64,000 bases of DNA from Apostichopus japonicus (Eukaryota > Echinodermata > Holothuroidea > Aspidochirotida > Stichopodidae): NCBI RefSeq assembly GCF_037975245.1, contig NC_092571.1, forward strand, positions 7,730,501 to 7,794,500, in the 5' to 3' direction. Below, piece after piece: positions 2,291 through 50,867 of this stretch (its first letter is position 1; every line of letters begins with the position of its first letter). Under the pieces are notes generated by a model, which made no database searches, was not told where the DNA came from, and saw only the letters and a program-made list of their open reading frames with translations. The translations under genes and the position numbers were made by a program.

Positions 2291-2291
2291 G

Positions 2292-28538: not shown

Positions 28539-30884
28539 TAGGGCTGTGTCATTCCGGTTAATTCACTAACCGGTTAACCGCTTCTATTAACCGAACGGTT
28601 AACGTTTAAACGTAACCCGTGTTGTTGCCTCAAAATAAGCGCCGAATATCAGAGTTATATAGCTCAGATTATAATTCCGAAAGAGCGCCACCACTTTTGA
28701 TGCGGAAGTACATTCTCAAAATAGCGCTGCAAGTATCGTTTTTTCGTAACGCGTATGTCAAGAATTTGGTTGTATTTGCTTAGTTTTGACGATCGTTGCA
28801 TTGAAAAAGACGAATCGCGCGTTTTCATGAAGTTTTAAACAGATTTTTGTTTCTCTTTCAGTTCATCGGTAACTGTTACAGAGATATTTGAAGCAAATAT
28901 GTCCTCGTTAATTGCGTAGCCCCTACTGTAACAGCGCAGGCATTGTATGGCAGTTATAAGCCTAATATTACTAGGCCTACTTAATATTGGCATTGTGTAT
29001 TGAACTTAGCGATCATATGGAGTGTTGGACTACAAGGCTTTCACCAGCTAGGCCAAGGTTAGGAAAGTTGGTTGTTAGGAAGCGATTACTACAGAAGTGT
29101 ACGGTAGTAGGGCTAGGCCTACGCAATTACAAGTACAACAATGGGTCACAGATATATTGAATTTGTGCATTGTGGCGGGGTAGGCAGAGGGTTGGGGGAA
29201 GTGTGGAAAACATTGTAAAATTTCCCGCGAACACCCTGTCGATTTCCCGCCGGAGTTCGCGCAGCAAACACAATTAGCACGCGTAGCATAATGGCGTGGG
29301 GTAGTCCCCCGGTGGGGTCATGTGGTGGAACCCCTTGTGGGGGTCCAGGGTAACGTTAACGCCCCGGAAAATTTGGCGCGTCTGTCGATAAAATATTCGC
29401 AGCTGTGGATGCAAAATACTGACAACTTTTTTAATTTAAATTGTCACGAAACTGATGAAAATTTTGAAATGACAAGTTAGAATAGCCATATTTTGTTATA
29501 AAATGAAAAGAGATCTATCTGTCTTACAATCATTAAAAAGTTTAACTTAAAAAAAACATGCGATTTTATGAAACAACGTTCGGCAAAGCCCCATTCCTAG
29601 ACTGCCTAACAATAGCTTGCACTATACTACAACTACGGTAGGCTACATTTTCCAAGGTACCATGCCAAACAACTGTGAGCCCATCCCCTGTCTAACACCT
29701 GTTGTTAACAATTTTTTGGGCATGTTGCCAAGGAACGTTTCATGGTCTAGAATTAATAAGGTCAGTCAGTAAAGGTTCGGTTAAGTTATGAGAATTATTA
29801 TCTTAGACGTTTAAGAAAAGTAGGTAAAATATGATCCCCGTAACAGCTAGGTAAGTAAAACAGGCAACTGACTCCTCCGCATGAACAAAACAATCGATCC
29901 ACATGATACATGAAAGTAAACCTTGTAATCACATGTTTAAGGCCACATGGCACGATTAACTAAATGCTTAATATTGTTTCCATGTTCTTGTAGAAAACGT
30001 AAACTTCGCAATATACAATTAGTTGTGTTTTTGTAGTTACGTGAGATCCGTAACCGACGAGGTGGTTAGGCTATTTGCTATACACTAAACTATGGTAGGA
30101 TATTATTTTCTCCGTAATTTTGGAAATTCTAGAAAATACTTTTTCGCCGCTTAACACCAGATGTGTTCTTACGTTTTATTAATAATTGGGTGTACTAGAG
30201 CCTTGTTTACATGACATTAGTTGCATTTAGAACGATATGCCAGTTTCGCGTGAATTTTTCGAAAGTTTTTTGCTCGATCTTTCGTAAAATTTGAAAGGTG
30301 TACCAACTTACTTTTCGTATACAACTGGTTATTTCTCTACTGATTTTCAGAGTTTTTTTTAGTCAAGTGTATACGTTGTGCATTGAGAATAAACTTATCG
30401 CGAATGCAAGAAAACGATGCGGGGATTTCCAGCAGACAAATGTTTTCTTTGTGGGATTACTGAGTCTGTTGAATGGAATCCCGCACCTTAGAGGGAACAC
30501 TGAACTGAAATTACATCATAATAAAGAAAACGTTTACTGCTTAAATACAATATAAATTTGAAAGGATTAGATGCAGACTCGCCACGTTGTCGAACGGGGT
30601 AACAATAGGCGCTTCACGGGTCTCATACCGCTTGATAATCCCTTCAATCGTACCGCCAATCTTAAAAATCTTTTGTATGGATGCGTGATAAAGTTTGCAA
30701 TTGTTATGTGATTTTCGGCAAGCAAATGTTGCGGTCTATTTCGGGAATAAAGTGATGTGAAGACGCGCCGTTGCGACTGCGTAATTGGCATTACAAAAAC
30801 GGTTAAACTTATACGATGTACGGCGGACGTTTATCCGGCCGTTCGGTCGGTTAACCGGTTAACCGTTTAACCGTTACAGCCCTA
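28539..30884. mobile_element. hAT-like element, 2346 bp, with 8-bp target duplication
   Basis: The terminal TAGGGCTGTG... and ...CAGCCCTA are inverted repeats, flanked by a perfect GTAATAAT at 28531-28538 and 30885-30892. Words built on CCGGTTAACCG cluster in the subterminal 60 bp on both sides. The interior shows no recognisable transposase (the frames at 30298-30555 and 30567-30791 have no motif), so it is nonautonomous. It sits 32 bp from the end of the composite element. Confidence 0.9.
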
Positions 30885-30892
30885 GTAATAAT

Positions 30893-32846
30893 AGACTAGT
30901 ACAAATCAGCCTTAACTTAGACCTACGCTAGGTCCACTGTACTAACGGAGTAAAGTTAGATCGAACACAGTGGCGTACCAAAATTCATATTATTATCATT
31001 TAAATATTATCATTAAATACTTACTAAATAAATAGACTTACCGCTTTCTTTTACTGGCGAGTTGGATTTGGTAAATATGGAACGCAAATACCAATATTCT
31101 GCTGCACTAGATCTATCTAAGTGTGGAGAGTTGGGTTTGGTGTGCTTTTTACGTGACCTGCCATGCGGGATACAAAACGTCACGGGTGGTACGAGCACGT
31201 GCACAGTCTAGACGGAAATACACGCAGCGCTGCAGGCTTGCACAGCAGTTCTATTGATTTTTACCCCAAACATCCAGCATATCGACAAGCGCTCGTCCAA
31301 TCACAATAGGAATCATAAATTCAACCAATGACATTGCCTTATTACTGCATGATCACCGTGTGTTTTTATCTAATTATCATAAAGACAGGGAGTTGAATTT
31401 AAAAGTACAGGTCACGATACAAAATAATAACACTATATTCACCGATGTAATTGAGCAAATGGTTACGTCTACATCGCAATACCTTTAAGTACCATGCCCT
31501 GTATTAAAAATCACCTAAAAAATTACGGAAAACGTACCAAAAGTATGTTTTCTGATCATTTTAAAATGTTATCAATAAGTAACATTTAAGTGTCATCTTG
31601 TGATGTACGCTACGATGAAATTTCACATCAAACAGACATTTGGGTAAAAACTAGTAGGCATTTAAAGAGCCCTCAGACTGAAAACGATTGGTGTGAGATA
31701 ATCTCCATATATGTAATATATGGAGATAAATATACTACACATAGATGAATATACGCACTATGACCCTATGATGTCATACTACAACACAGACAACAATATA
31801 TTGTATTGCTACCCGTAGTATGCCTATCCATACCACTGATCTACACTAACAGATCAGTGATCCATACACACATTGCTCGTTGCTATACATAGTTATGACT
31901 TTCAATTGACTGTTAAATTCGTTACGTTTTATTTATTCAATTTTTATTTGGACACAAGTCACTACTATACTTTGTCAGAATATTCTTCTTGATTTAGGTA
32001 CTAATTTAGAATCCGTAACATCCGATATCCGACAGGCTAAAAGAGGGCGCTCTTTTTGATGGGATGGGCGTTTTCGGATTCTCTAAAGTCAGGCCTTGAT
32101 TTATTTTTACTTCCTGATCTGAATCAGTTTCTTAGGACAGTTTTGCGCAGAACTCCGATTGTGACACTGTGGAAAACTACCAGGAATTTCCACGGTAGAA
32201 GTCATGGTAGGAATTGTGTGTAGGCTTATACTTCCATGAACCAATCACTCGTCACGGCAGAGACATCTATTGTTTACATGGTAAGTCAGATCATGGAGGT
32301 AAAAACAGATGTTTTTACCTCCATGGTCAGATGATTACATTACCATCCAACCTAACTAACTGTATCAGGTTTACATGTAGCCCTATATATTGGCTTACAA
32401 CGTAGATCTTCACTTCATGCATGTGATAACACAAGTTGATCTGTTGTAAACGATGAATTTCGACTTCTTTGAGGGTTGACACAAAAAACTGACCTAAAAC
32501 ATTTATATTCTGTGATATTCGTACCACAGGTTCCATACAGTTAATGATTTGTAATCAACAATAGGTCTTTTTTTTTTAATAACATATGTTTTGTTAATTT
32601 TCAACAAAAAGGGCATTTAATATAATTAACAACAAGCCATTTATCATTATGAAAATGGGACAGGTTACCTAACCCTCCTGCCCCCTAATGGCGGGAATTT
32701 GTTTTATGAAAAAGAAAGCAGCACGGTTTTTTTTTAAATATTTTTCTTTGGGAGGGGGGGGGGGAATAGGAAAGCAGTCAATGGGATTTGTTACATTCTT
32801 TTTCCATTTTTCTCCCTCAGATCACAACTGACGTAAATATAGGAAA
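30893..32846. promoter_or_regulatory. Upstream region of the death-domain gene
   Basis: No coding exon supported. A CpG-richer stretch lies near 31140-31220. A kappaB-like GGAATTTCCA is at 32183-32192. A perfect hairpin is at 32292-32325. Palindromic AT words lie near 31700-31730. An acceptor (ctccctcag) at 32820 precedes 26 bp of 5' UTR before the ATG at 32847, so a noncoding first exon and the promoter must lie further upstream. Its place is not identifiable by eye. Confidence 0.35.
32292..32325. other. Perfect 34-bp hairpin
   Basis: The 16-bp arm CATGGAGGTAAAAACA, a 2-base loop, then the exact inverse arm. No terminator or element context is evident. Confidence 0.8.
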
Positions 32847-32909
32847 ATGGCAGGTAGCGATGTGCAAGACCAAGACATTACTGCAGTAGCTTCTAAATCC
32901 CTTCTACTG
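32847..32909 (+). CDS. Death-domain gene, first coding exon
   Basis: After an acceptor (ccctcag at 32812-32820 region) and a short leader, an ATG opens a 21-codon frame MAGSDVQDQDITAVASKSLL, ending in CTG before GTTTGA, a weak donor. It ends in phase 0, which matches the phase-0 start of the death-domain exon at 34925, and the joined peptide supplies the missing first helix of the domain. There is no signal peptide, so the product is cytosolic. The intron (32910-34924) contains a complete hAT-like MITE (33113-34454). Confidence 0.65.
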
Positions 32910-33112
32910 GTTTGATAATTGATTCCTCGTTTCCTTATTTTTATTTATCACTCATTTCTCAACTTCTTTATATTCAATTCTTTCACCCAAATATATGACG
33001 TATATCATGTGTTCTGTTGAGAACCGTAGAGTATGGACACGTTACTTACTTAAAGCATGGAACACTCTTAATTCAAGGGATCAGCTTACAAGTGTGGCCT
33101 GAGCCACGTGAG

Positions 33113-34454
33113 CATGGGCGGGATTACAGGGGGGCAAGAGGGGGCATTTGCCCCCCACTTTTCCCCAAATCTTAGTTCACTTTTTTGTCGTTTTGCAGAC
33201 AAATGTGCACAACCCTAATCGAAATTATTCCCCCACAACAGCTCTATCAAATAGGCCTATTTGTTTCGAATTTAAGTCGAATTTGTGTTTAAGATCGTAA
33301 CATGTAGCATGCAGAATAACTGGAGCTGGAGCTAGCACATGGTTCGCAGCACAGGTTAGGAATCCTGGAGCTAACACACTAGCGATTCAATTCTGCATGT
33401 GATGAATCCGTGGCATGTGCTACAGTGCTAGCTTCAGAAATTGATTTTCAACGTTGCTGCTCTACTGAGCGCATTGAATAACTAAATCCAGAGAAACGAT
33501 TTAAAAAAGCCAGATTTGCATATTGGGTATATCAATAATCAAATTCAAAACACTGACACATGACACCCCCCCCCCCCGGTGTCATTCAACAATATGCAAT
33601 GGCAATGCCGATGTAATTTCTTTACTGCTCGAAATCACCCCTCCTCGACTTCAGTGGCGACGGAACTGGTGGACTTGAGGGGCTTATCCCCCATGAAAAA
33701 AGTGGGGGGGCGGTAAAGGTATGTTCAGCCCCAATATTTGCCAAGTGCTCCAAGAAGTGGGGACCGCGGGGAGAATTTCGAAGTGGGTGTTGAACATATT
33801 CTTGATCCGTCCAAATGCATACTAATAATTTTAGGGGGAAAGAACTGTCGTCTAGATGCGATTTATTGTCACCAGAGGTGTCATTTTTGCTGATCTAGGA
33901 TTTCCTTTTTGCTTAAATTTCGATGCGCCGCGCCAACTGATGGTGGTGCACCGCCTAAATAATGACGTATTAGCTTCAGTTGTACATCACCATATAAGTT
34001 CTTCTATCCGTCCTCCCTAAATTTAAACACGTTCATGAATTGTTTAGATGCAATTTAAAGCCTATATGGGTGTTAATTTTACCGATCTAAGGGTACCATT
34101 CATCGAAAATTTCGACGCGATCCTTGTCAACCGATGATGGCGCTCCGCTTAGATAGTGACGTATAACAAAAGTTGCACATCACCATCTGACCATATGTTC
34201 TACTATCAATCCTCTTCAAATTTTTAAACAATAATTAACTATCTAGATACAAATTGTAGACATGAGATCCATATTTCAAGGATGGGTACATGCAGCTTAG
34301 AGCACTCGGGAAGTGCCGTTTCCGGCCATCTGGAGGGTTTGTAAAGCCCACAAATTTCTTGAACGCTCCGCGCCAACCGATGGTGGCGCTCCGCTTAGAT
34401 AGTCTTGCTGGCAGGTTTGCCCCCCCCACTTTCACAACTCAAATCCCGCCCCTG
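33113..34454. mobile_element. Intronic nonautonomous hAT-like element, 1342 bp
   Basis: It starts CATGGGCGGGATT and ends AATCCCGCCCCTG, with a perfect 8-bp duplication CACGTGAG (33105-33112, 34455-34462). The interior carries three successive diverged copies of the GGTGGCGCTCCGC module (about 33845-33962, 34030-34162, 34255-34405). No coding content. It lies wholly inside the first coding intron of the death-domain gene. Confidence 0.92.
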
Positions 34455-34924
34455 CACGTGAGGGATAAGTTTCTCGATACTTAAATACTGTCAGATTGAT
34501 TTCCTGTTAAGTTTTTACAACAACACGCTCTGTGAACATACCGGGTGTCCTAATCTCCACCCCTCCCACTCCCCTCTCATATCTTGCAGAAGATAGAGTC
34601 ATGACGATAAACTGAGAGTGTATGTGGCCTCACATGATTTCCCTTCCCCTCCACATCTCGCTGCATATGTATAGTCCTATATCATGGGTGTGTGTGTGTG
34701 GGTGCGTTTGCTCTTGTTCTGTAATCTGAATGAGGAATTCCAAGTCCTCAGACTTCATTTCAAAAGATTCACCACATCTTCAGAAGAATTCTTTTGTGAT
34801 AGGCTAATGCTAACGTTAGGGTACGTAGATTCCAACAATGAAATAAACAATAGTCTGAATGTAAAGGAGACCTATATGTGTGTGTGTTTGAAATGTGTTT
34901 CATGCCAATTATCTCAATTTTCAG

Positions 34925-35182
34925 GAGTTGACAGATCAGCTTCAGGAGTGGAAATTCCTTGGAAGACAACTAGGACTGACTGATGGAGAAACTGTTGATA
35001 TTGAACGAGATAACAGAGAGAGCAAAGAAATGAAATATCAGACACTGCTACAATGGAAGCAGAAATTTGGGAAACGAGCAACCATTGGCAAGTTAGCCGA
35101 AGCTCTGAAGAAGGCTGGCAGAACAGATTTAGCAGATTATGTTATGCAAGGTGGATCTGCATCATTCTTTTCAAATAAATAA
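34925..35182 (+). CDS. Death-domain exon
   Basis: The acceptor attttcag opens the frame in phase 0: ELTDQLQEWKFLGRQLGLTD, then ETVDIERDNRESKEM, YQTLLQWKQKFGKRATIGKL, AEALKKAGRTDLADYVMQ. This is a classical death domain: the EWK..GR.LGL.. helix, the LLQWK tryptophan and the L..ALKKAGR.DLA final helix are all present. Such domains assemble by self-association in apoptosis and NF-kappaB pathways. The frame ends SASFFSNK and TAA (35180-35182), with AATAAA overlapping the stop. Alternatively CAAG|GTGGAT at 35148-35149 is a phase-1 donor that would join the domain to the downstream cassette exons. With exon 1 the short form is about 106 residues. Confidence 0.9.
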   Translation, partial: ELTDQLQEWKFLGRQLGLTDGETVDIERDNRESKEMKYQTLLQWKQKFGKRATIGKLAEALKKAGRTDLADYVMQGGSASFFSNK

Positions 35183-35262
<80 letters not shown>

Positions 35263-35290
35263 TTATATATTTATATATATAATATATGTA
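35183..35290. repeat. (AT)n microsatellite
   Basis: An almost pure AT tract directly after the death-domain stop codon, extending as ATTTAT variants to about 35290. Confidence 0.97.
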
Positions 35291-36354
35291 ATATATGTGT
35301 GCGTATGCGTGTGTGTATATGACACTTGCTCGTAAACGTCCTAACTTCAGAGAGATTACTTGGATACATTTCATATTTGGTATGTAGCTTCCCCTTAGGT
35401 AAAACTGCTTTGACATCGTTATTGGTATTGGTGAAAGGTCAGCAAGGGTCAAAGTCAGAAACCATTGTTCACACAATATTTCAATTAGTAGTTATTAAGT
35501 AATTATTAAGTTAAAGGAAGTTCGAACTTAGCATGTTGCTTGCCGTCGGTGAGAAGACGATCTGTAGTGTTTTTTGAGGTCAACAGGGAAAAATGTGTGA
35601 AAGTCTTGTAAACATGATATCTCAAGGAGGGTTGCCCTGTGTAGTCCATATATTTTGGCATGTGGATTTCCTGTAATAACTGCATCAACCCTATTGTTTG
35701 TGGTGGAGGTCAAAGGTCATTTAGGATCAGCAGAGGGCAAAATGCGAATATATCAAGAGTGCTATTTCTTCAGAACAAGAACCAAAACATGAAAGGAGCT
35801 CATATATGCATGGAATAATAGCCTTGTGTATTGTATAGTTTATACACAATTTGATGTAGGTCAGAGTTCATTTAAGGTCATTAGGTGTCAGTAAGCCTTC
35901 TTGAACACAATGTAAATATGACTTTTCCAGATAGATAGAAAAGAACAGAAGCTGGTTTGTATGGCATGGCTTCTCTATGATGAGTACAAGAACCCTATTG
36001 TTTTTGGTGGAGTGTACAGGTCATTTGGGTTCTGCAGAGGTTAAACTCTGGGAATTTTAAACCTGCATCATGGAATATCATATTGGTACATGAAATTCCA
36101 TGAAGAGCCCAGTAATTCTTTTAAAAGTCAAAGGTCATTTGAGGTCAGCAATGGAGATGTGTAAAAACCTTATAAAAGCACTGTAGCTGGATAATTTCTT
36201 TTCATATTGAGACTCCTAATTTACTTCATTTGCATTCCAACCCCTCCACCCCCCCCCCTTCCTTCTTATCTGCTCTATCTATATTGATCCAATACTATCA
36301 TACATTTATGCTGAAGTGCTGGTCAAACTTTGTTATTAATAGTCCTCCAGAGGC
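35291..36354. other. Noncoding, with dispersed 'aaggtcatttgaggtcag' words
   Basis: Repeated words (aaaggtcattt, gaggtcagca, ccctattgttt) recur several times at irregular spacing, as in an old dispersed repeat. No exon is supported. In the long transcript model this is intron. Confidence 0.45.
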
Positions 36355-36576
36355 GAGTCGGGCCCTTGGGACCATTATGTTACTGCACTTCTCACTTTTG
36401 TGAAGTTTATTTTGACAATGAGAATATACTATTCGTTGTCCTGCATTTTCCCAGGGTTCCTGGATATATTCCTGGCTCCCCTGTATATTTTCCCTGGATC
36501 CCTCATGAGGCCTGGGAATGTAGCTCGGTCTCAATGCCCCACTCACCAGATCTGTCTCTCTTTCGTGTACATACAG

Positions 36577-36621
36577 AACAACGAATTCGTGATGCAGAAC
36601 TGCTACAAGTGCCGCTGAATG
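36577..36621 (+). CDS. Cassette exon 1 (45 bp, phase 1-1)
   Basis: acatacag precedes and GTAAGT follows. The phase-1 frame reads QRIRDAELLQVPLN and ends in a single G, like every other cassette in the gene. Its length is a multiple of three, so it can be included or skipped without shifting the frame. It encodes linker sequence after the death domain. Confidence 0.6.
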
Positions 36622-36883
36622 GTAAGTCCTAGACTCCGTTTTCCTTTGATATCCAGAGTCCTCAAGAGATAATTCAGGCCCTTGGGACCCATTATGTTAC
36701 TGCACCTCTGTCACTTCTGTGAAGCTTATTTTGACAAATGAGAATATACTATTCGTTGTCCTATATTTTCCCAGGGTTCCTCCATATCTTCCTGGCTCCC
36801 CTGTTTATTTTCCCTGGACCCCTCATGGAGCCCTGTCTCAATGCCCCTCTCACCAGATCTGTCTCTATTTCATGTACATACAG

Positions 36884-36922
36884 ATGAAGGTGATTGTGGA
36901 GCACAACCACGACAGGCTAATG
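36884..36922 (+). CDS. Cassette exon 2 (39 bp, phase 1-1)
   Basis: acatacag precedes and GTTAGT follows. The frame reads EGDCGAQPRQAN. It is the counterpart of cassette 1 in the tandem duplication. Its start and end resemble the later array exons (NGDP..., ...GAN), which suggests common origin. Confidence 0.6.
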
Positions 36923-36925
36923 GTT

Positions 36926-37570
36926 AGTCCTCTTTCAGTTTTCCTGTTCCTATGACAACAAACATACATATCTAAGATTTCAAACTGCCTGGATCAATCA
37001 CGTTTGCAGATCACATCACTGTGCTGGAAACTTATTCCATTCGTGAGCCACAAATTTGTCTGAGAGGATTTGATGCTTTTTTAAATTTCTTCCAAGCTTT
37101 CTCAGTCTCTCTAAAAACAACAAATTTGCAAACTAAAGGGACACCCTTTACAGATAATTTTCACTAACACTTTTTCTAAATTAGTATGAATCAAATACAA
37201 AAATTCAGTTGGAAAATGTTTAGAAATTAGCTTTAAACATGAAAATTGACTATATAGGCCACCGAGCGTGGAAAATCTTTCTCGTCCAATGAGCATGTAA
37301 CCTGATCTCACATGATCTCATCTTCATGTCCTTTGTGTGCTTAGACTATTAAACCTGTAACTTTAGTATGCTAAAAAAGATCTCCCATCCCGAGAAATAC
37401 TGGAATTCATCCCTAATATTATGGGAACTTAGATTAATTGGTATCGGTGAGTAAGCGTTTCTATTTGACATCATTATTTCATCATTCTGTAATAAATCAT
37501 TAACATCTAAGCTAGTTAATGGCAATTCCCCCCACCCCCCCTATTTTTTTCCTTTAGTTGATCAGATTAA
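36926..37570. other. Intron, nothing recognised
   Basis: AT-rich sequence without repeats or exon signals that I can support. Confidence 0.4.
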
Positions 37571-37576
37571 GACAGG

Positions 37577-40345
37577 TCACGTATCTTGTTCAGCATTTCA
37601 CTAACACGATAGACAGTGCTGGTCTGTTGAGATATTCTCTAGTGTACAGTAGCATCACTGCAGCCAGGCTGTGTGAGAGGTCATGTATCTTGTTCAGCAT
37701 TTCACTAACACGATAGACAGTGCTGGTCTGTTGAGATATTCTCTAGTGTAGCATCACTGCAGCCAGGCTGTGTGAGAGGTCATGTATCTTGTTCAGCATT
37801 TCACTAACACGATAGACAGTGCTGGTCTGTTGAGATATTCTCTAGTGTAGCATCACTGCAGCCAGGCTGTGTGAGAGGTCATGTATCTTGTTCAGCATTT
37901 CACTAACACGATAGACAGTGCTGGTCTGTTGAGATATTCTCTAGTGTAGCATCACTGCAGCCAGGCTGTGTGAGAGGTCATGTATCTTGTTCAGCATTTC
38001 ACTAACACGATAGACAGTGCTGGTCTGTTGAGATAATCTCTAGTGTAGCATCACTGCAGCCAGGCTGTGTGAGAGGTCATGTATCTTGTTCAGCATTTCA
38101 CTAACACGATAGACAGTGCTGGTCTGCTGAGATAATCTCTAGTGTATCATCACTGCAGCCAGGCTGTGTGAGAGGTCATGTATCTTGTTCAGCATTTCAC
38201 TAACACGATAGACAGTGCTGGTCTGCTGAGATAATCTCTAGTGTATCATCACTGCAGCCAGGCTGTGTGAGAGGTCATGTATCTTGTTCAGCACTTCGCT
38301 AACACGATAGACAGTGCTGGTCTGTTGAGATAATCTCTGGTGTAGCATCACTGCAGCCAGGCTGTGTGAGAGGTCATGTATCTTGTTCAGCACTTCGCTA
38401 ACATGATAGACAGTGCTGGTCTGCTGAGATAATCTCTGGTGTAGCATCACTGCAGCCAGGCTGTGTGAGAGTTCATGTATCTTGTTCAGCATTTCCCCTA
38501 TACGATAGACAGTGCTGGTCTGCTGAGATAATCTCTGGTGTAGCATCACTGCAGCCAGGCTGTGTGAGAGTTCATGTATCTTGTTCAGCATTTCACCTAT
38601 ACGATAGACAGTGCTGGTCTGTTGAGATATTCTCTGGTGTAGCATCACTGCAGCCAGGCTGTGTGAGAGGTCATGTATCTTGTTCAGCATTTCACCTACA
38701 CGATAGACAGTGCTGGTCTGTTGAGATAATCTCTAGTGTAGCATCACTGCAGCCAGGCTGTGTGAGAGGTCATGTATCTTGTTCAGCACTTCGCCTACAC
38801 GATAGACAGTGCTGGTCTGCTGAGATAATCTCTAGTGTAGCATCACTGCAGCCAGGCTGTGTGAGAGGTCATGTATCTTGTTCAGCATTTCACTAACACG
38901 ATAGACAGTGCTGGTCTGTTGAGATATTCTCTAGTGTAGCATCACTGCAGCCAGGCTGTGTGAGAGTTCATGTATCTTGTTCAGCATTTCACCTATACGA
39001 TAGACAGTGCTGGTCTGTTGAGATATTCTCTGGTGTAGCATCACTGCAGCCAGGCTGTGTGAGAGGTCATGTATCTTGTTCAGCATTTCACTAACACGAT
39101 AGACAGTGCTGGTCTGCTGAGATAATCTCTAGTGTATCATCACTGCAGCCAGGTTGTGTGAGAGGTCATGTATCTTGTTCAGCATTTCACTAACACGATA
39201 GACAGTGCTGGTCTGTTGAGATATTCTCTAGTGTAGCATCACTGCAGCCAGGCTGTGTGAGAGGTCATGTATCTTGTTCAGCATTTCACTAACATGATAG
39301 ACAGTGCTGGTCTGTTGAGATATTCTCTAGTGTAGCATCACTGCAGCCAGGCTGTGTGAGAGGTCATGTATCTTGTTCAGCATTTCACTAACATGATAGA
39401 CAGTGCTGGTCTGTTGAGATATTCTCTAGTGTAGCATCACTGCAGCCAGGCTGTGTGAGAGGTCATGTATCTTGTTCAGCATTTCACTAACACTATAGAC
39501 AGTGCTGGTCTGCTGAGATAATCTCTAGTGTAGCATCACTGCACCCAGGCTGTGTGAGAGGTCATGTATCTTGTTCAGCATTTCACTAACACGATAGACA
39601 GTGCTGGTCTGCTGAGATAATCTCTAGTGTAGCATCACTGCACCCAGGCTGTGTGAGAGGTCATGTATCTTGCTCAGCATTTCACTAACACTATAGACAG
39701 TGCTGGTCTGCTGAGATATTCTCCAGTGTAGCATCACTGCAGCCAGGCTGTGTGAGAGGTCATGTATCTTGCTCAGCATTTCACTAACACTATAGACAGT
39801 GCTGGTCTGCTGAGATATTCTCTAGTGTAGCATCACTGCAGCCAGGCTGTGTGAGAGGTCATGTATCTTGTTCAGCATTTCACTAACACTATAGACAGTG
39901 CTGGTCTGTTGAGATATTCTCTAGTGTAGCATCACTGCAGCCAGGCTGTGTGAGAGGTCATGTATCTTGTTCAGCATTTCACCTACATGATAGACAGTGC
40001 TGGTCTGCTGAGATATTCTCTAGTGTAGCATCACTGCAGCCAGGCTGTGTGAGAGGTCATGTATCTTGTTCAGCAATTCACTAACACGATAGACAGTGAT
40101 GGTCTGTTGAGGTCTTCTCTAGTGTAGCATCACTGCAGCCAGGCTGTGTGAGAGGTCATGTATCTTGTTCAGCATTTCACCTACATGATAGACAGTGCTG
40201 GTCTGCTGAGATCTTCTCTAGTGTAGCATCACTGCAGCCAGGCTGTGTGAGAGGTCATGTATCTTGTTCAGCATTTCACTAGCATGATAGACAGTGCTGG
40301 TCTGCTGAGATAATCTCTGGTGTAGCATCACTGCAGCCAGGCAGA
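37577..40345. repeat. 99-bp minisatellite, about 28 units
   Basis: The unit runs from gtcatgtatcttgttcagca through atagacagtgctggtctg to catcactgcagccaggctg. I count 28 starts of the gtatcttg(t/c)tcag word. Units differ by a few bases, and variants are grouped along the array. The unit is 33 codons long. On the minus strand many units contain TAG (cta/g at the agtgta position), while units at about 38240-38690 carry CAG and read open as SHSLAAVMLHQRLSQQTST. It lies in the intron between cassette exons 2 and 3. Confidence 0.96.
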
Positions 40346-40487
40346 ATACTAGGTACATATTTTACGAAGCATATGTGAATCATGCTGGAATTACATTTTT
40401 TTGGAATATTAAATTAGCTTATTAGATTGAGCATGTGTTCCATTCATCAGTGCAGTCAAGCATTTAACCTAGTTATCCCCTTCACAG

Positions 40488-40571
40488 ATAATGGAGATCC
40501 TGCACACCGCCATCTGTTGGGGGCAGAAGGGAATGGGGCAACAACGCCAGCCAATCCTCGGGGAGCAAATG
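40488..40571 (+). CDS. Cassette exon 3 (84 bp), array copy A
   Basis: Acceptor ttcacag, donor GTTAGT, phase 1-1. It reads NGDPAHRHLLGAEGNGATTP then ANPRGAN. Proline-, glycine- and asparagine-rich, so a flexible linker. Confidence 0.65.
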
Positions 40572-40828
40572 GTTAGTCGCAGATGTTAAATTTCCTGTGT
40601 CTTTATCGCAAGTGTATAAATAAAGCCTCACTCTGTATTATAAACACAAATATGCCCAATATCAACCCTACACTGTCTTTTGGCACTATTTGGTAGTCAA
40701 TTACATAATCATGAAATCATGTTTATTCTGGCATTATATATTTTGGAACAAAAGTAATTACCTAATAGATATTGCATGTGTTTCGTCCATCACTAGTGAA
40801 AGGTTTAACCTTCTTATTCCATTCGCAG

Positions 40829-40906
40829 TTTATGGAGATACTCCACGTTGCCCTCTGTTGGAAGGGAATGGGGCAACAGTGCCAGCCAACCCTCAGGGAG
40901 CAAATG
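40829..40906 (+). CDS. Cassette exon 4 (78 bp), array copy B
   Basis: Acceptor attcgcag, donor GTTAGT, phase 1-1. It reads YGDTPRCPLLEGNGATVPAN then PQGAN. It lacks 6 bp (GGGGCA) present in copies A and E. Confidence 0.65.
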
Positions 40907-41162
40907 GTTAGTCGCAGATATTAAATTTCCTGTGTCTTGTCTCAAGTGTATTAATAAAGCCACTCTTTGCATTATAAACACAAATATGCCAATATCAACC
41001 CTACACTGTCTTTTGGCACTATTTGGTAGTCAATTACATAATCATGAAATCATGTTTATTTTGGCATTATATATTTTGGAACAAAGATAATTACCTAATA
41101 GATATTGCATGTGTTTTGTCCATCACTTAGTGAAAGGTTTAACCTTCTTATTCCATTCGCAG

Positions 41163-41240
41163 TTTATGGAGATACTCCACGTTGCCCTCTGTTGGAAGGG
41201 AATGGGGCAACAACGCCAGCCAATCCTCGGGGAGCAAATG
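41163..41240 (+). CDS. Cassette exon 5 (78 bp), array copy C
   Basis: Same signals and phase as copy B. It reads YGDTPRCPLLEGNGATTPAN then PRGAN. Confidence 0.65.
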
Positions 41241-41497
41241 GTTAGTCGCAGATGTTAAATTTCCTGTGTCTTTATCGCAAGTGTATAAATCAAGCCTCAC
41301 TCTGCATTATAAACACAAATATGCCAATATCAACCCTACACTGTCTTTTGGCACTATTTGGTAGTCAATTACATAATCATGAAATCATGTTTATTCTGGC
41401 ATTATATATTTTGGAACAAAGATAATTACCTAATAGATATTGCATGTGTTTTGTCCATCACTTAGTGAAAGGTTTAACCTTCTTATTCCATTCGCAG

Positions 41498-41575
41498 TTT
41501 ATGGAGATACTCCACGTTGCCATCTGTTGGAAGGGAATGGGGCAACAGCGCCAGCCAACCCTCAGGGAGCAAATG
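41498..41575 (+). CDS. Cassette exon 6 (78 bp), array copy D
   Basis: Same signals and phase as copy B. It reads YGDTPRCHLLEGNGATAPAN then PQGAN. Confidence 0.65.
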
Positions 41576-41822
41576 GTTAGTCGCAGATGTTAAATTTCCT
41601 GTGTCTTTGTCTCAAGTGTATTAATAAAGCCTCACTATGTATTATAAACACAAATATACCAATATCAACCCTACACTATCTTTTGGTACTATTTGGTAGT
41701 TAATTACATAATCATGAAATCATGTATGTTCTGGCATGGAACAAAAATAACAACCTACTAGATATTGCATGTGTTTCGTCCATCACTTAGTGAAAGGTTT
41801 AACCTACTTATTCCATTCACAG

Positions 41823-41906
41823 ATAATGGAGATCCTGCACACTGCCATCTGTTGGGGGCAGAAGGGAATGGGGCAACAGCGCCAGCCAACCCTCAGGGAG
41901 CAAATC
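41823..41906 (+). CDS. Cassette exon 7 (84 bp), array copy E
   Basis: It starts like copy A (NGDPAHCHLLGAEGNGATAP). The last exon base is C instead of G (AATC|GTTAGT), which weakens its donor and changes the codon formed across the junction. It may be used less. Confidence 0.55.
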
Positions 41907-42155
41907 GTTAGTCATAGATGTTAAATTTCCTGTGTCAAGTGTATTAATAAAGTCTCACTATGCATTATAAACACAAATATGCCAATATCAACCCTACACT
42001 GTCTTTTGGCACTATTTGGTAGTCAATTACATAATCATGAAATCATGTTTATTCTGGCATTATATATTTTGGAACAAAAATAATTACCTAATAGATATTG
42101 CATGTGTTTCGTCCATCACTTAGTGAAAGGTTTAACCTCGTTATTCCATTCATAG

Positions 42156-42226
42156 ATAAGTCAGAAGGAAAAGCTGAAGCTCCTCAAGTGGTTGATCTAG
42201 TTAATGACAAAAATGGTTCATCCTAG
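42156..42226 (+). CDS. Alternative terminal exon with stop
   Basis: After the acceptor tccattcatag the phase-1 frame reads KSEGKAEAPQVVDLVNDKNG, SS and TAG (42224-42226). The upstream intron belongs to the array, so this exon is a diverged array member that became a terminus. It gives a linker-only C terminus. To reach the downstream death-like exon this exon must be skipped. Confidence 0.55.
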
Positions 42227-42710
42227 ATGTTCAACTTGATGTGTATTTGTCTTCATAGTTTAAGCCTCATTATGACATTTTGGCCCAAACTGATTGTACA
42301 TTGTACAGTGTTTGTCAGTGAATGCAATTGGTTGTTGTTGCCAATATACGTTTTGCTCGAGAAAAGCTGGAAATCTCTCATCTTCCGATTCCCTCCCTTC
42401 ACTTTCTCTACATAAGTCAAAGAAATAGTCTCATATCTCGATATTACCAACCTTCATTGGGAGAAATGCTTTGCTTAGTTTAAGTGTTTGTCCAAATACC
42501 CTGTCCGGTGTTAGTTTTGTATTTTGAAGTTTCATATTGCTAACGGTAAAGGGATTCATTTTCAAAGGGGTTGTTACTTCATTGAGTTGATTATATCCCA
42601 GAAGCTTTCCTCCTCATGTGTAAAACTATTAATCTATCTAACTTATTTGGTAAAGAAATAATTTTATCATTGATGCTAAAGAAAAATTTAATTCTTACAT
42701 TTGTTTCTAG

Positions 42711-42746
42711 TAATCCAAACGATCTCTCTGGGACCTTCCCAGTCTG
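42711..42746 (+). CDS. Cassette exon 8 (36 bp, phase 1-1)
   Basis: Acceptor ttgtttctag, donor GTGATG (weak). It reads IQTISLGPSQS. The length is the same as the next two cassettes. Confidence 0.45.
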
Positions 42747-43024
42747 GTGATGAAAGTGCAAGATATGGTATATTTCAATTTTCATATTATCTTAAAATTT
42801 AGTTTACTATCATCCATGTCAAATTGTCAACATTGATACCAAAAGATCTCGTTTGCAAGTGAAACATACTATATAGGCATGTAATAACTTTACTAAGGCA
42901 TGTTACACGATCTCATATACAACAATTAACAGTTTTCCATGTGATGCGTCTTTGGAATTCCTGAGTTTCCAAGTTAAAATTGTTTGTGTCAAGAAATATT
43001 AAGGTGGTACAGTGTCTTAAATCT

Positions 43025-43132
43025 GGTAATCCATAATAATAATCAGCAGTTATTTTACGACGCTTAAGCGACCACAAATGTGGGAGAAGCCCGCAACGGC
43101 TTATGGATTACAACTTACACTTAATGCAGATC
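43025..43132 (-). mobile_element. SINE body fragment
   Basis: taagcgaccacaaatgtggg, the following gagaag, and ttacaacttacac match the body of the SINE at 5290-5585. The tRNA-like head is missing. Confidence 0.65.
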
Positions 43133-43453
43133 ATTAAGTTAGATATTCATGTTGGATGATTAAGAATACCTTTATCCGTCACAGCTTTAATATGTGTGGA
43201 CCCTAGCAGCTCAATGTAATAATGCTGTGTCTGATTGACAAATTTGTTTGATGAATGTGAATCAATTTTGCTCACATTTGATCAATATTGGTTCCATTCA
43301 TTGGCATTTTAACGCTAATGAGTAGCGACCGAACACAACAGTTTGGAAACATAGTCAGAATATACTACTTTAGAGGTATAAAAAAACTGAAAGAGTAGAA
43401 CTGTTGTTGAGATTTTAATATTTATATTACATCTTTCCATTGTCCATCTTCAG

Positions 43454-43489
43454 TAAATACGCCGCGACGATGGAACATAGGACCATCAG
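43454..43489 (+). CDS. Cassette exon 9 (36 bp, phase 1-1)
   Basis: Acceptor atcttcag, donor GTGTGT. It reads NTPRRWNIGPS in phase 1. Confidence 0.5.
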
Positions 43490-44615
43490 GTGTGTATGAT
43501 TGGTGCAATTCTTTTTATTTTGTGATCTTCTCAATCAAGTTACTCATGTCTTCAAAGGGATTTTATTGTCTATGTTCCTTCTTCTTTTTTCCTCATACAA
43601 CTAAAACTTTCGACTCTTAAGAATACCACATAATTTGTAACAGCCAACAATTCATTTTTACGACAACATTTGGAGTTACAATCTCTCTAGTGGGTCAAAA
43701 TCATTCTTACCTGTGAGCTATAAAACAGATTGCAGTGAAATATATGCTCCTGTTTTCTTCCCACAGTGACATGACTGTTGCTGCCACGACCTACAGTATA
43801 CAGTATCTCAATTTTCAGATTAGCAGAGAGTGTACAAGTTATATTCCTTGAATGTCAATAATGTCCTTACCTGAAGGAGCAAGAAAAAGAATGTCAAGAA
43901 TAACAAATTAACACTTTTGAACATGGATATGACATCACAGCTACACTGTGTCCAGACAGCCCAAATTATTGCTAGGGGCACTGCTATCACTGGGTCCTGC
44001 TTCCCAGAGAAAACCCTTTGTAGGCATTAACAGTACGGTAACAATATTACAGACCATTGACCTAAATGCATGTAGTGCAACTAAACATGTAGCACTTTGA
44101 TTTATAATGGAGCATCAGAGACGTCAAATGAAATATATTAACCTAATTGAAGAGAATTATCGGTGTTATAAAAGCCAATAAGTAGGATCGAGAGTCCCAA
44201 TCGCTTCTTCGTAAAGTCATTTGACCACTGGTCTGTGAATACTGTAAGTCAACTTACAAACGTTAATGAGTAGAATGAGAAAGTACAAGTTGTTCGTCAA
44301 TGTAAGAACATTGGAATTGCAAAATCTCCGTTGAGATGTTTTCAAGTGTTATTTCGACATCTGTATGTTTGGCAAATAGGCATCAGTAAAGTGTGTCTCT
44401 GAGTTGTATGCGGCCCACCTAGATCGGATGTGTGGAAGTTAAGTGAATCTGTGACGTCACAACCGTGGTTTCGTAGTGTAACAAACTTTGGGACATTTTC
44501 TCATGTACGTTCGACGATGGCTACTCTATTGCTACTTTGCCGTGAAAATGAAAAACCATTCCCGTATTTTTCTTCTCTATATTTTTATACCTGTCTCTGT
44601 TCTCTCCTCATTTAG

Positions 44616-44651
44616 ATCAACAATGGCAATTTGAACTAGAGGAATTAGGGG
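44616..44651 (+). CDS. Cassette exon 10 (36 bp, phase 1-1)
   Basis: Acceptor ctcatttag, donor GTAATT. It reads QQWQFELEELG. Its final G plus the GT of the next exon makes the glycine that opens the death-like exon at 45852. Confidence 0.5.
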
Positions 44652-44935
44652 GTAATTATGTTTTTCATAACAATTGTAAAGTATTTCATTTTGCAAAACA
44701 GCTCTCAAATTGAATTGGCTCTTTTGTATTAATTGGTATTATTATTACACCACATCATACCCATAAGATTGCAAATCCCAGCCTTGACTGCTCAAGGGTT
44801 TTTTCCAATAATGAAAATTCATCACAAATGTTAATTCTGGTTTGCTGTTGATTTAATATGTAGTCATGTCAAAAGACTTGTTTTAAAAACCCAAAATTTC
44901 CAGGTTACATCAACCTGTGAGTTATGGTGAGGGTG

Positions 44936-45005
44936 TTGTGGTCAAATGGCTAAGGCAATGGACTGAATGATTTAAGCATTGCAAGGTTTGAGTCCTCTAT
45001 TTTGA
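44936..45005 (+). mobile_element. tRNA-derived SINE head
   Basis: GTTGTGGTCAAATGGCTAAG resembles box A of a Leu/Ser-type tRNA and GGTTTGAGTCC (44985-44995) is a good box B. It is not a functional tRNA because pairing of the stems is lost. Confidence 0.55.
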
Positions 45006-45690
45006 AAATCTGATATCTCAAACAAAGTGAAATTTAAGTTTGGGTTTATATATTTTATGATATTTTCATTGACTTGCTAACATCATGACCATGAATTTGT
45101 GAGACACCCATGCTTGATCATTATCTCATCCAGGGTTCAGGCTTACTGGATGTTCTTCGGGCATCCTAGACTTTGAAAGGTTTTCTAGACATTATTTATC
45201 CAAACAAGATCAATGTACTATGTATGTTATGACTTAACTACTTTTAATGTAAATAAACTGTGCGTGTCGTCGAGACAACCTAAGGTTGTTCAAACAACGA
45301 CATTGACTGTCTATTCAGTTCCATGTTAATGGGAGATGCAAACCCAATCATTTATTTACCTATGTTTCAAATGCTAGTTTTTTTTTTGTGGTCGAAGATC
45401 CAATGCCAAAAAACTTGAAAGTAGCCGGAAGTCTCAATTTATCAGTTATTGCATCATGTAATTTACTGAGTGAGCTGCGGTATCTTTATGGTACATAATG
45501 TCTGCTTACATAGAAGTGGGTGCTTTTCTCTTTTCTATTTTTCAAAGGGAATGCCAAACATATAAAATTGAAATTTCATGGCCCTTTTACAAATTTGGGG
45601 TTATTCCTGTTACAGTAAATATAGTCCAGTACATAATGTCCAGGGACATTTCTGCGGATACTTTGAATCCTGGGACTAAACATGAAACCT

Positions 45691-45703
45691 GGGGACTTTC
45701 CCC
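45691..45703. promoter_or_regulatory. NF-kappaB-type motif, copy 2
   Basis: GGGGACTTTCCCC is identical to 69-81 and has the same distance to the death-like exon. Intronic; function inferred. Confidence 0.35.
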
Positions 45704-45851
45704 AAAAATTCAAAAGTCTTGTCAGCTAATATATTACGGGATACACAATGATACATGGATATTATATGAATTGGTTACTTAACACATCAAGGGGGGAAAA
45801 TACTGAAATTATGAAAATGTCAATTTGCTTTATTTTTGTTTGGTCTTACAG

Positions 45852-46186
45852 GTGAACTTGTTGCAAATCAAGAACTATCTCTCTTGGCAACCAGTATTGC
45901 CCAACTCCATGGTGGAAGGGAATTAAACGATGAACGACTATTCTGCAGTCAGTTAGGCATAGATGATAGGGTTTATAATCCAGTGTTGATGGACAGGAGG
46001 CAATCAAATAATGAAGAAAAACTATATTATGTTCTATATGCTTGGCTCATGGCTACTTCACTAACAAGGAACAGCCTTTGTAAAGCTCTTTTGAAATTTG
46101 ATAAAGTGAAAAAGACACGTCTATGTAAATTATATGTAGATATTGTCCATGAACTTTTTCATGAGAACTCTTCGGATAGCTCTTAG
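45852..46186 (+). CDS. Terminal death-like-domain exon of the 32.8-46.2 kb gene
   Basis: The acceptor ggtcttacag opens in phase 1: GELVANQELSLLATSIAQLH, then ERLFCSQLGIDDRVYNPVLM, EEKLYYVLYAWLMATSLTRN, and ends SSDSS with TAG at 46184-46186. The helix pattern and central Trp match the death-fold family. By hand alignment it differs from 231-565 at about 31 of 110 residues and about 42 of 335 bases, with only about six silent changes, while much of the noncoding flank is over 99% identical. Variable positions crowd into the first two helices and the final one; LYYV..AWLMATSLTRNSLCK is unchanged. It would give the gene a second death fold, separated from the first by the cassette-encoded linker. 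Confidence 0.72.
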
Positions 46187-47911
46187 CAATGCATTAAGGA
46201 GACACAAGCTGCAACCATCACCATTTGGTCTTTGTGAATGGAATAACAAACAGCAATGAAGAACTTACCTACACAGCTTGCTGCCAAAAAAATTATAATT
46301 CAAGTTTTGGAGATACAGCAGATTGAAATGAATGTGCCATCACACGCCAGGCTGAAGACTTGAACAAGACTAAATATGACATCATCGAGCCACGTGTGTT
46401 TCGTGTCATCGTGTTTTTTCTTCGTTCATAACAATTTTCTGGAATGATGACAGGGTCTTGCAAACGACGAATTCTGAAATATTTAAGTTATGAACATGAC
46501 CTAATGATGCCATTGCTTTTTGCCGGCAGCACTGTTAACATTCTGTCTTGCAAAGATGGAAAGGAAAATGAAGAGAAAGTGACAACATTTTGGACAGAAT
46601 GTCAGCCTCTCGGACATACCAGCAATTTTATCTTATTTTGCATAGGTGCCAACCAGTACAATTTTATTGTATTTAGTACTTTAAAACAAGTGAAATACGA
46701 TAATACGATATTGCCTCTTGAAAATACGATTTTTCATCTTTAAAAAAAATATATATAATAATTTTTTTTTTTTTAATGGAAGTGGAATCACATTGAAACA
46801 TGTACAAGTAACACCCCAAACCACGACAAACACGTTGAACAACGAGCCCACATGGGCGGGAAATACACGGAATCAGCAGCTTTACAATTTTTTCATTAAA
46901 TGTAAATGAAAAAGCAAACATTTTACTTGCCTGTTCTTACCAGTAAAACATTTTTCTGACATTTTATTGGCCCGGGCCAGTGGTAGTGACAAGTTTTTGT
47001 GAAAATCTGATTTTTCTCTCCAAAATATGATTTTTTAGGATATCCAGTCTATTTTTGTGTGTCAAGATGTTGGCATCTCTTATTTTATCTCTTATTTTTA
47101 TTCTTTCATAATAGCAATCTTACTTTTCTTTTTTCTGACAAAACAATTTTGATTACATTTTCTACTCAACAAAAGTCTTTCAAGAGTTTATCCTTTTGTC
47201 TTACAATGAAAGTGTACTTCCCAAAAACCTTGTACTTAAAATTCCATTGCTACATATTTCTTGAAGGATCACAATGTAACACTTAATCTGAAGAGAGCAA
47301 TATTCCACATTGTTAGTTGCAAATCCCAACCCCATATATCATCTCTAGTCACAGATATGCTCGATTGAATGTTATCGATACAGAGGCGGTAAACTCTCCC
47401 CTACTCTAGAAAAGTGGAGATCGCATCAGGTGGTCTCTGACATCATCATCATGGGAGATGTACTCCAAACGCTTTACTTTCTTATTGTAAGACTTTGTTT
47501 TGGTGGAGTAATCTTGGAAATGTGATACAATTGGAGTGTTAACTTAATTGTCAATACTCTCTGTTTTAAGTTAGAATTTTATCAAAATACTTAATTTTTT
47601 AGGAATATTATTATCCTGTTTTGGTTAAATGATTTATTCAACAACCCCCCCCCCCCAAAAAAAAAAAATCACATTTTCTGCTCATGATGACATCACTCAA
47701 TCTGGTTCTGCCTGATCAATTTACAAACTTTACAATTTGTTAAGTTCATATCTTTATAAAATGTTAAGAAGCTGTGATTTTGACTTTAAGATACAGAAAC
47801 TATCTAGCAAGTCTGGTAAACAATTTCAGCCACAACAATACCCTGTTAATTCATTTCATTACTACATATGAAACCACTAGTTGACAGTGTTGCAGTTCTC
47901 AAAAGGTTTTG
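46187..47911. other. Noncoding 3' flank of the death-like exon, copy 2
   Basis: Counterpart of 566-2290. No gene supported. A C/A homopolymer run lies near 47646-47668. Confidence 0.55.
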
Positions 47912-49205
47912 GTACTTAAGTACTTTCTGCAGGTACTCAGTACTTGGGGTACTTGGTACTCAAGTACTTTCTGCATGTACTCAGTACTTGGCGTACTTGG
48001 TACTCAAGTACTTTCTGCAGGTACTCAGTACTTGGGGTACTTTGTACTCTCTGCAGGTTCTTTGGTACTCAAGTACTTTCTGTAGGTACTCAGTACTTGG
48101 GGTACTTGGTACTCAAGTACTTTCTGCAGGTACTCAGTACTCGGGGTACTTTGTACTCTCTGCAGGTTTTCTGGTACTTGGTACTCAAGTATTTTCTGCA
48201 TGTACTCAGTACTTGGCGTACTTGGTACTCAAGTACTTTCTGCAGGTAGTCTCAGTACTCGGGGTACTTTGTACTCTCTGCAGGTTCTCTGGTACTTGGT
48301 ACTCAAGTACTTTCTGTAGGTACTCAGTACTTGGGGTACTTGGTACTCAAGTACTTTCTGCAGGTACTCAGTACTCGGGGTACTTTGTACTCTCTGCAGG
48401 TTCTCTGGTACTTGGTACTCAATTTTTTTCTGCATGTACTCAGTACTTGGCATACTTGGTACTCAAGTACTTTCTGCAGGTACTCAGTACTTGGGGTACT
48501 TTGTACTCTCTGCAGGTTCTCTGGTACTTGGTACTCAAGTACTTTCTGTAGGTACTCAGTACTTGGGGTACTCAAGTACACTCTGCAGGTACTCAGGGTA
48601 CTTGGTATCCAAGTACTTTCTGTAGGTACTCAGTACTTGGGGTACTTGGTACTCAAGTACTTTCTGCAGGTACTCAGTACTCGGGGTACTTTGTACTCTC
48701 TGCAGGTTCTCTGGTACTTGGTACTCAAGTATTTTCTGCATGTACTTGGTACTCAAGTACTTTCTGCAGGTACTCAGTACTCGGGGTACTCAAGTACACT
48801 CTGCAGGTACTCAGGGTACTTGGTACCCAAGTACTTTCTGTAGGTACTCAGTACTTGGGGTACTCAAGTAATCTCTGCAGGTAGTCTCAGTACTCGGGGT
48901 ACTTGGTACTCTCTACCAAGGTACTTGGTACTCAAGTACACTCTGCAGGTACTCAGGGTACTTGGTACTCAAGTACTTTCTGTAGGTACTCAGTAGGCTA
49001 CTTGGGGTACTCAGGTACTCTGCAGGTACTCAGTACTCGGGGTACTTGGTACTCTCTACCAGGGTACTTGGTACTGAAGTACACTCTGCAGGTACTCGTG
49101 TACTTGGTAGTCAAGTCTTTCTGTAGGTACTCAGTACCTTGGGTACTCAAGTACTCTCTGCAAGTACTCAGTACTCTGGGTACTCAAGTACCCTCTGCAG
49201 GTACT
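47912..49205. repeat. GTAC-rich minisatellite, copy 2
   Basis: Same 44-bp-based units as 2292-3640. It is about 50 bp shorter in total, with internal unit gains and losses (for example around 48190-48310 and 48740). Confidence 0.95.
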
Positions 49206-50867
49206 CGCACTCCATGGTGAGTTCACTGGTGATAAACTACAGGTACTCATATTCAGTATTCTAACTCGGATGATAAAGTACTTGTATAAAAATGGTGATA
49301 TCAATTTTTTATAAAGAAGTCATTGGTGGAAGTAATTTGTAGAGAAGCTGTGCCAGAGCTTAATTTAAGTAGTAGATAGGCTAGTCTTAATTTCAGTAGT
49401 AGTTAGGCTAGTCTTATTTCACAATATGATATAGCAGCCTAGGCATACCATCTAAGTTTAAGTCTTGATCATCTGACATTGATATTTGTAGATACTATAT
49501 GTGGTGATTTGGTTCTTTTTTTCTCTCTCTCTTGTATTTTGAACTGAAATGTTATTCATAATAGTTAGAAATCTATTTGAATATAAACTAAATATATATA
49601 ACTAAATCCATTACGATTGATTGAAACTACTGTATATGCATCCATGATGTTTCATATCTTGCCAGAGCTGAGGCAAATGGAATCTCTGCAATGGTGTTTG
49701 TGTGTGTGTGTGTGTGTGCATCATGTGCACTTGTTTTGTATTCTGACTGAGGACTTGAACAAAGGAATTCCAAGTCCTCACAAGTGGTTTCAAGGAATGA
49801 CTGTCCTCAGAAGAATTATTTTGTTTAGGGATATTGTTCAAAGTTAGTATAAACGGGTTTGAACAATTGGAAATATAAAACAATGGGGTCCTCAGTCTGA
49901 ATGTATTACACACCTTTCTTTGTGTGTCACATGCCTTGGCTTGTAAATGCAAACAGCTCAAGACTTAGTGATAGGTGAAGAGTGAACCTCATATTTGGTA
50001 TGTGGATGAACCTTTGAGAGTAGTTCAAAGGTCAAGAGTGGTCAAAGCCTGAAAACCTTGTAAAACATGGGTAATTCCAAACCGGTGAAAAGGTCAGCTC
50101 GTGTACATGCAGTATGGACTTCAGCCAGGGTTATTATCTTGCAAACTACTCTTGTGCTGCATATGTAATGTATTTAATGGCAAGTAATTGATGGGAGGGA
50201 TTTCCCTCTGATGATCATTAAACCTGCCAAATGATCTTATTTGTTTAATACTTTAAGTTATTAAACTATCCAAGTGATATGTAGAAGAAAATTTATTAAT
50301 AAGTATTTACAAAAATTTGTACATGTTTCAATCAATCTTACAAGAAATTTGATAATAAATAATCAATATATTTTACACTTTTAACTCATCGAAGTCAGGT
50401 AAAATATTACTTGATTTGGTTTTTGGAATAAACCTTAAACTTTCCAAGAATTTCATTTTTTTTTTTTTTTTTGGAGAGATACTCTTCTATGATTTGTTAT
50501 GAAAGAGTTCTGATCATGGTTAATGATCTTAAATAGCCATCATGTAAAAAACTCACTATAGCCAACAAATTAAATACATTTATATGAAGATAAAACATGT
50601 TTTTCTTGTTGTATTTTCGATTCAGTATCAAGTTCCCGCAAACTAGGTCATATGCCCAGTTCACCCTTTTTTCCCAAATAATCACCCAAAAATTTCCCGT
50701 TATGTAGACGAATGTTTATATGTTACGTTTTTCTATTAAAGTCCTACAAAATCTTTTTTTTAATTTGAATAGTACAATAGTATTTCTGTATTTCTGGCCT
50801 TCCCACAATTAGTCAAAACTCGACTCTCATAGTACACATTGGAATATACTACCCTGAACCAAAAGTA
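49206..50867. other. Noncoding flank, copy 2
   Basis: Counterpart of 3641-5289, with a longer (GT)n near 49697-49718. No gene supported. Confidence 0.5.

Follow-up and report, generated by a model that had tools for sequence, protein, structure and literature searches.

A candidate fusion of a death-domain front end with a HYR-receptor cytoplasmic tail in the sea cucumber Apostichopus japonicus

Does a chain of small exons, each of which could be dropped from a transcript without loss of frame, act as a splicing switch between two death domains? The question was raised by gene A, which lies on the forward strand of a 64 000-nucleotide stretch of A. japonicus contig NC_092571.1 (C11:7730501-7794500, referred to as the window; positions are those of the window unless a contig is named). 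A preliminary description of this DNA had proposed that symmetric exons between 36577 and 44651 form a switchable length ruler between two self-assembling domains. Comparison with the whole genome (671,581,487 bases in 35 contigs) pointed to another answer: gene A appears to be a chimera, in which the 5' block of a set of death-domain loci meets the cytoplasmic tail of a receptor at an (AT)n microsatellite. Judged by these comparisons, the gene-fusion locus is real and a splicing switch is not demonstrated. Gene A was compared with two paralogs on the same contig (B, its neighbour, and C, at 11.45 Mb), with a more distant pair of the same family (D, at 11.498 Mb, and a locus at 7.8146 Mb), and with three other death-domain loci, L014 (C11, 28.26 Mb), L015 (C10) and L016 (C22).

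Origin of gene A

The first coding exon, E1 (MAGSDVQDQDITAVASKSLLL; 32847-32909, + strand), starts with ATG, ends at a GT donor and has 71-76% amino acid identity to L014-L016. It is followed by the death-domain exon E2 (34925-35150, +), which matched the Pfam Death family PF00531 at E=1.5e-14 with 54.3 bits, the curated cut-off being 22.6, and which ends at the phase-1 donor CAAG|GTGGAT. Both exons, like the terminal exon E13 (45852-46186, +, stop at 46186), had been placed correctly in the preliminary description. Together with their 5' flank, E1 and E2 form a block covering at least 32095-35296 (+) that ends in the (AT)n repeat and aligned by blastn at 78-85% to the three death-domain loci, from 32356 in L014 and from 32095 in L015 and L016; the latter start lies near the edge of the compared loci. 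A genome search placed the E1 region in A and L014-L016, four places in all, at 85-90%. A query of 30000-32300 gave 40 matches, all of which, apart from the window itself, fell on stretches repeated many times. Two adjoining repeats occupy 30000-31731, the first of which (to about 30888) has dozens of matches at 95-100% identity. Within the block, intron 1 is interrupted and lengthened at 33113-34455 by a high-copy 1.35-kb element with many genome copies at 89-96% identity.

The fusion point would be the (AT)n microsatellite itself (35175-35296, detected by TRF). With a longer query, homology of A to L014, L016 and L015 ended at 35153, 35200 and 35296, respectively, and homology to B and C started at 35296 and 35300, directly after the repeat, and then ran through the gene. 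The death domain at 34925 is accordingly not the linker's original partner but was joined to it through rearrangement. Phase 1 is used on either side of the junction, which leaves the fused frame open: L014-L016 carry an AAG|GTGAT donor at the position equivalent to the end of E2, and E1, E2, the linker and E13 form one open frame with all 11 linker exons or with none. With this shared phase symmetry, neither the duplication of exons nor the fusion of genes disturbs the frame.

The 5' side has a close counterpart in the death domain-LRAT (DD-LRAT) gene at C11:28.26 Mb (L014 with L055). The two share the 5' flank, E1, the intron and the death-domain exon; unlike A, the DD-LRAT gene continues into an LRAT domain (PF04970, E=3.9e-8) some 3 kb after the death-domain exon. 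Among the five LRAT places found in the genome, none adjoins A, which thus does not share the downstream LRAT domain of this family. At L015 (with L057), the death-domain exon is followed after about 1.4 kb by an exon of the MBF2 family (PF15868, E=7.3e-16), and a homologous stretch lies behind L016; a DD-MBF2 gene is conceivable, although none of the acceptors viewed at L015 clearly matches the death-domain donor in phase 1. Of 204 candidate death-domain places in this genome, 150 were scored, many of them on contig C12.

The 3' side was traced with the terminal exon of A, which gave four places in the genome; a second search with the most distant of these gave five (A, B, C, D and the locus at 7.8146 Mb). 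In paralogs B and C, an HYR domain (E 4.1e-11 and 6.1e-12) accompanies Cys-rich exons, a juxtamembrane exon and a transmembrane (TM) exon that was judged hydrophobic by eye. One frame runs in each paralog through the TM, juxtamembrane, seven linker and terminal exons. B and C look like transmembrane receptors on this exon content, and their linker exons would join the membrane to the C-terminal domain. The receptor form was taken as ancestral, and A as derived, because the Cys-rich exon is present in B and C and, with a weaker match (48% over 33 residues, E 0.016), in D. No HYR, Cys-rich or TM-exon match was found in the window by tblastn at E<=0.05. Gene A is best described as a putative derivative of the HYR receptor family rather than a member, sharing the linker and E13 and lacking the ectodomain and the TM segment. 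Of paralog B, only the terminal exon (231-565, +) lies within the window, and its remaining exons lie upstream.

The likeness to death receptors and adaptors (TNFR1, Fas, FADD, RIPK1) is partial. The terminal domain of A is predicted to adopt a six-helix death fold, and B and C place this domain behind a TM segment as death receptors do. Unlike in those proteins, the terminal domain is without a Pfam match, the Cys-rich exons are without a Pfam TNFR match, B and C contain HYR, and gene A shows no receptor part. A TNFR ectodomain was considered for B and D, whose Cys pattern looks TNFR-like by eye; Pfam gave no TNFR match in B or D, nor did the exons of B find one when their sequence was compared with the PDB, and the assignment is tentative at most. 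Upstream of B and C, 7.4 kb (C11:7694145-7701498 and 11420001-11427360) are 99.8% identical. Set against a difference of about 5% in the non-coding sequence of the gene tails, this stretch appears to be a recent copy or conversion.

The linker exons and their expansion

Between E2 and E13, 11 linker exons were found, all on the + strand, where ten had been proposed: c45 (36577-36621), c39 (36884-36922), c84a (40488-40571), c78a (40829-40906), c78b (41163-41240), c78c (41498-41575), c84b (41823-41906), c60 (42156-42215), c57 (42711-42767), c36b (43454-43489) and c36c (44616-44651). Their lengths are 45, 39, 84, 78, 78, 78, 84, 60, 57, 36 and 36 bp. The array of the preliminary description is real as a set of exons and differed in its count: a third 36-bp exon was not found, and the 60-bp (42156) and 57-bp (42711) exons had been missed or mis-measured. 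Its description of the exons otherwise held. Each has phase 1 at both ends and a length divisible by three, together they form a single open reading frame (ORF), a frame check showed that each of the 11 can be skipped in frame, and every exon but one has G before the GT donor, the exception being c84b, which ends C|GTTAGT. Splice sites and frame support each exon, with a weak donor (GTTCAT) at c60. An alternative upstream acceptor would extend c39 to 66 bp (36857-36922), in phase 1 and still open.

Chance occurrence was controlled by scoring AG..GT segments of 30-99 bp in 36.3-44.5 kb for an open phase 1. With splice sites scored most strictly (pyrimidine tract >=0.67, donor >=4 of 5), 7/7 segments were open, the density being 0.54 per 8.4 kb on the same strand outside this interval and 0.26 on the opposite strand; however, only five of these seven are listed exons, and a single exon accounts, through its copies, for four of the five. 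Under the loosest scoring, 15 of 80 segments were open, the 80 including nine listed exons, and the outside figures were 10.7 (same strand) and 3.2 (other strand) per 8.4 kb. The contrast with chance within this single sequence appears real but modest.

The real proof of the exons is provided, at the level of sequence, by the paralogs. In B as in C, E13 and each of the seven ancestral linker exons are preserved intact with their splice sites, which backs the claim that true coding exons link the death domain to the second death-fold domain. Lengths in B, C and A are 42/45/45, 45/45/39, 84/84/84, 60/63/60 and 57/51/57 bp, followed by 36 and 36 bp, and all differences are multiples of three. Across the 692 bp of shared exons and three branches, 8.24 frameshifting indels were expected from non-coding rates and none was observed (P0=2.6e-4). 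Protein-level conservation in relatives, the lack of which had been named beforehand as grounds for abandoning the array, was found in a particular form: frame, splice sites and lengths in threes are kept in two paralogs, and the amino acid sequence drifts, with a ratio of nonsynonymous to synonymous rates (dN/dS) of 0.94-1.18, so that the frame is kept and the sequence is loose. The linker falls below the charge-hydropathy boundary, a weak measure, as the folded E2 domain does so too.

Five of the linker exons (84, 78, 78, 78 and 84 bp; tandem units 1 to 5, c84a to c84b) form with their introns a 335-bp tandem array (TRF: 4.9 copies, 91% matches). Because these five are copies of one exon, the 11 linker exons reduce to seven ancestral ones. 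The extra copies were found only in A, and B and C hold the unit once. The 245 bp 3' of the exon diverge by 2-8% among the units of A and by 4-10% between these and B or C; on this divergence the expansion would be roughly as old as, or younger than, the split of the paralogs, copy loss in B and C also being possible. The 60 bp 5' of units 2-5 are 24-29% different from the equivalent stretch of unit 1, B and C, which would follow if the copies had taken along the end of another intron. Exons c45 and c39 are also preceded by related sequence (a 96-bp upstream stretch, 91% alike), and D has two related 75-bp linker exons of its own (contig positions 11491253-11491327 and 11495300-11495374, in stretches 79% alike), so that duplication of linker exons seems to recur in the family. 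Gene A with its five exon and intron copies at a 335-bp period, and D with its two related exons, resemble known tandem exon duplications. In contrast to these, the copies in A can all be included together in frame, and mutual exclusion is not forced.

These data bear directly on the proposal that inclusion of symmetric cassettes tunes the distance between self-assembling domains, which we regard as improbable. It is consistent with the in-frame skipping of all 11 exons, with a link between tandem exon duplication and alternative exon choice made in the literature (PMC9013439), and with a linker whose sequence drifts freely at a near-constant length (120 amino acids in B, 120 in C and 119 in A without the extra copies, reached via offsetting indels). 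The argument from symmetry to alternative splicing fails, however, since 1-1 phase is also seen outside the linker, in the HYR exon of B and in the TM and juxtamembrane exons of both paralogs; phase-1 symmetry appears to be a habit of the family and is no evidence for regulated skipping. Every ancestral linker exon is retained in both paralogs, which give no sign that any is dispensable, and the constancy of length is itself broken by the expansion in A, where the linker with every exon included nearly doubles to 225 amino acids. For the receptors, the three genes give a hint that linker length matters.

The copies might instead multiply a short docking motif around LL...GNGAT...ANP.GAN, copy number then setting valency and not length. 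The units keep most of this pattern across copies and paralogs, which speaks for such a motif; set against it are the linker dN/dS near 1 and exon copies that differ from each other by 3-15%. We consider this reading very unlikely.

The intron before the array holds a 99-bp minisatellite (37574-40342, 33 codons per unit) with about 28 copies in A by TRF and one or two copies at the equivalent place in B and C. A coding role was considered for it and rejected: the frames are partly open on both strands, and there was no splice evidence.

The terminal domain and the product of gene A

The second death-like domain that had been placed at 45852 is supported by its predicted fold and not by any sequence profile. 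Structure prediction gave a six-helix death fold for E13, the best VIA rows being the death domains of RIPK1, FADD and TNFR1. In Pfam, E13 of A matched no family at E<=1, those of B and C gave one weak unrelated row each below the cut-off, and that of D gave none; a comparison with solved structures by sequence gave 0 matches.

The terminal exon diverges by 12-25% between paralogs and its flanks by 3-6%, about four times less. Values of dN/dS were 0.84 (A-B), 1.75 (A-C) and 1.34 (B-C), with Fisher p of 0.68, 0.08 and 0.43, and the nonsynonymous:synonymous counts on the branches were 7:3 for A, 11:4 for B and 37.25:4.75 for C. Positive selection alone was not established for E13, because no dN/dS was significantly above 1 and because its synonymous divergence (dS 0.16-0.24) also exceeds the divergence of the flanks (0.03-0.06). 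Diversification of E13 and homogenization of the flanks around it fit the pattern equally well.

The explanation that we consider best, and moderately probable, is that the chimera makes one soluble protein with two death domains, an adaptor or decoy in which the linker serves mostly as a spacer. The fusion transcript would be translated into a death domain, a flexible linker of up to 225 amino acids and a second death domain, with neither a membrane anchor nor an ectodomain. The C-terminal domain could pair with the receptor tails of its own family, and the partners of the N-terminal one would be death domains from the other, making A a bridging adaptor or a decoy. The linker exons would most likely be constitutive or form a loosely spliced spacer.

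Several observations weigh against this explanation. The E2 donor reads GTGGAT in A and GTGATT or GTGATC in its relatives. Read-through past E2 meets a stop ten codons on, which overlaps an AATAAA, and E1-E2 could therefore end as a death-domain-only transcript. Purifying selection is not clear in E2, where dN/dS of A against L014, L015 and L016 was 2.42, 1.13 and 1.92 (none significant), nor in the linker or E13 at the ratios given above. Under neutrality the A branch alone would have gathered 3.27 frameshifts (P0=0.038) and about 0.96 stops; none was observed, which is of moderate significance only. Part of the constraint on this branch may, moreover, predate the loss of the ectodomain.

The same observations are accommodated if A consists of two unlinked pieces, E1-E2 being a remnant or a gene with a death domain only, and the tail (36.5-46.2 kb) a partial copy of a receptor that lacks a promoter and decays, its intact look being due to its youth. 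The junction at (AT)n would then be a rearrangement breakpoint, and the read-through stop with its AATAAA just after E2, the dN/dS values at or above about 1 for E2, E13 and the linker, and the weak donors of c84b (C|GT) and c60 (GTTCAT) would be as expected. What counts against this is that the 12 tail exons of A, the four extra copies included, contain zero frameshifts and zero stops, that the neutral probability of no frameshift on the A branch is low before stops are counted, and that the E2 donor has a position and a phase fit for a join to some phase-1 exon further downstream, as suggested by the DD-LRAT sequence of L014. Two unlinked pieces are, on balance, rather unlikely, though to be taken seriously.

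Returning to the two-death-domain protein, it might be specified further as a bridge between HYR-receptor tails and DD-LRAT-type effectors, its linker length set by copy number and splicing and its receptor-side domain diversifying so as to keep the signalling of the paralogs apart; as a whole this elaboration is doubtful. The capture of a receptor tail by a foreign death-domain front end, and the multiplied exon, would be new relative to the preliminary description. In such a capture, the tail of a receptor has acquired a front end from another death-domain family within one genome that retains both source families for comparison, and the locus shows how a common intron phase lets such a fusion stay open. 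Near-constant linker length, drifting linker sequence and a divergent E13 offer concrete tests of selection on death-domain spacing and on pairing specificity. A role in echinoderm immunity may be inferred. A literature search on the HYR domain together with the death domain in echinoderms found no paper; among the titles listed on HYR and death domains in sea urchins, sea cucumber TNFR or death domains, death-domain expansion, linker cassette exons and tandem exon duplication, none named gene A, and reports elsewhere may exist. The main text of PMC13228809 does not mention 'death', 'HYR' or 'TNFR'.

Related GTACT-rich minisatellite arrays follow the terminal exons of A (47909-49206) and B (2248-3309); given their position downstream of both, they were probably duplicated with the gene. 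Upstream of gene A, on the - strand, 25627-26886 contains a 419-amino-acid ORF that resembles a DDE-type transposase by eye.

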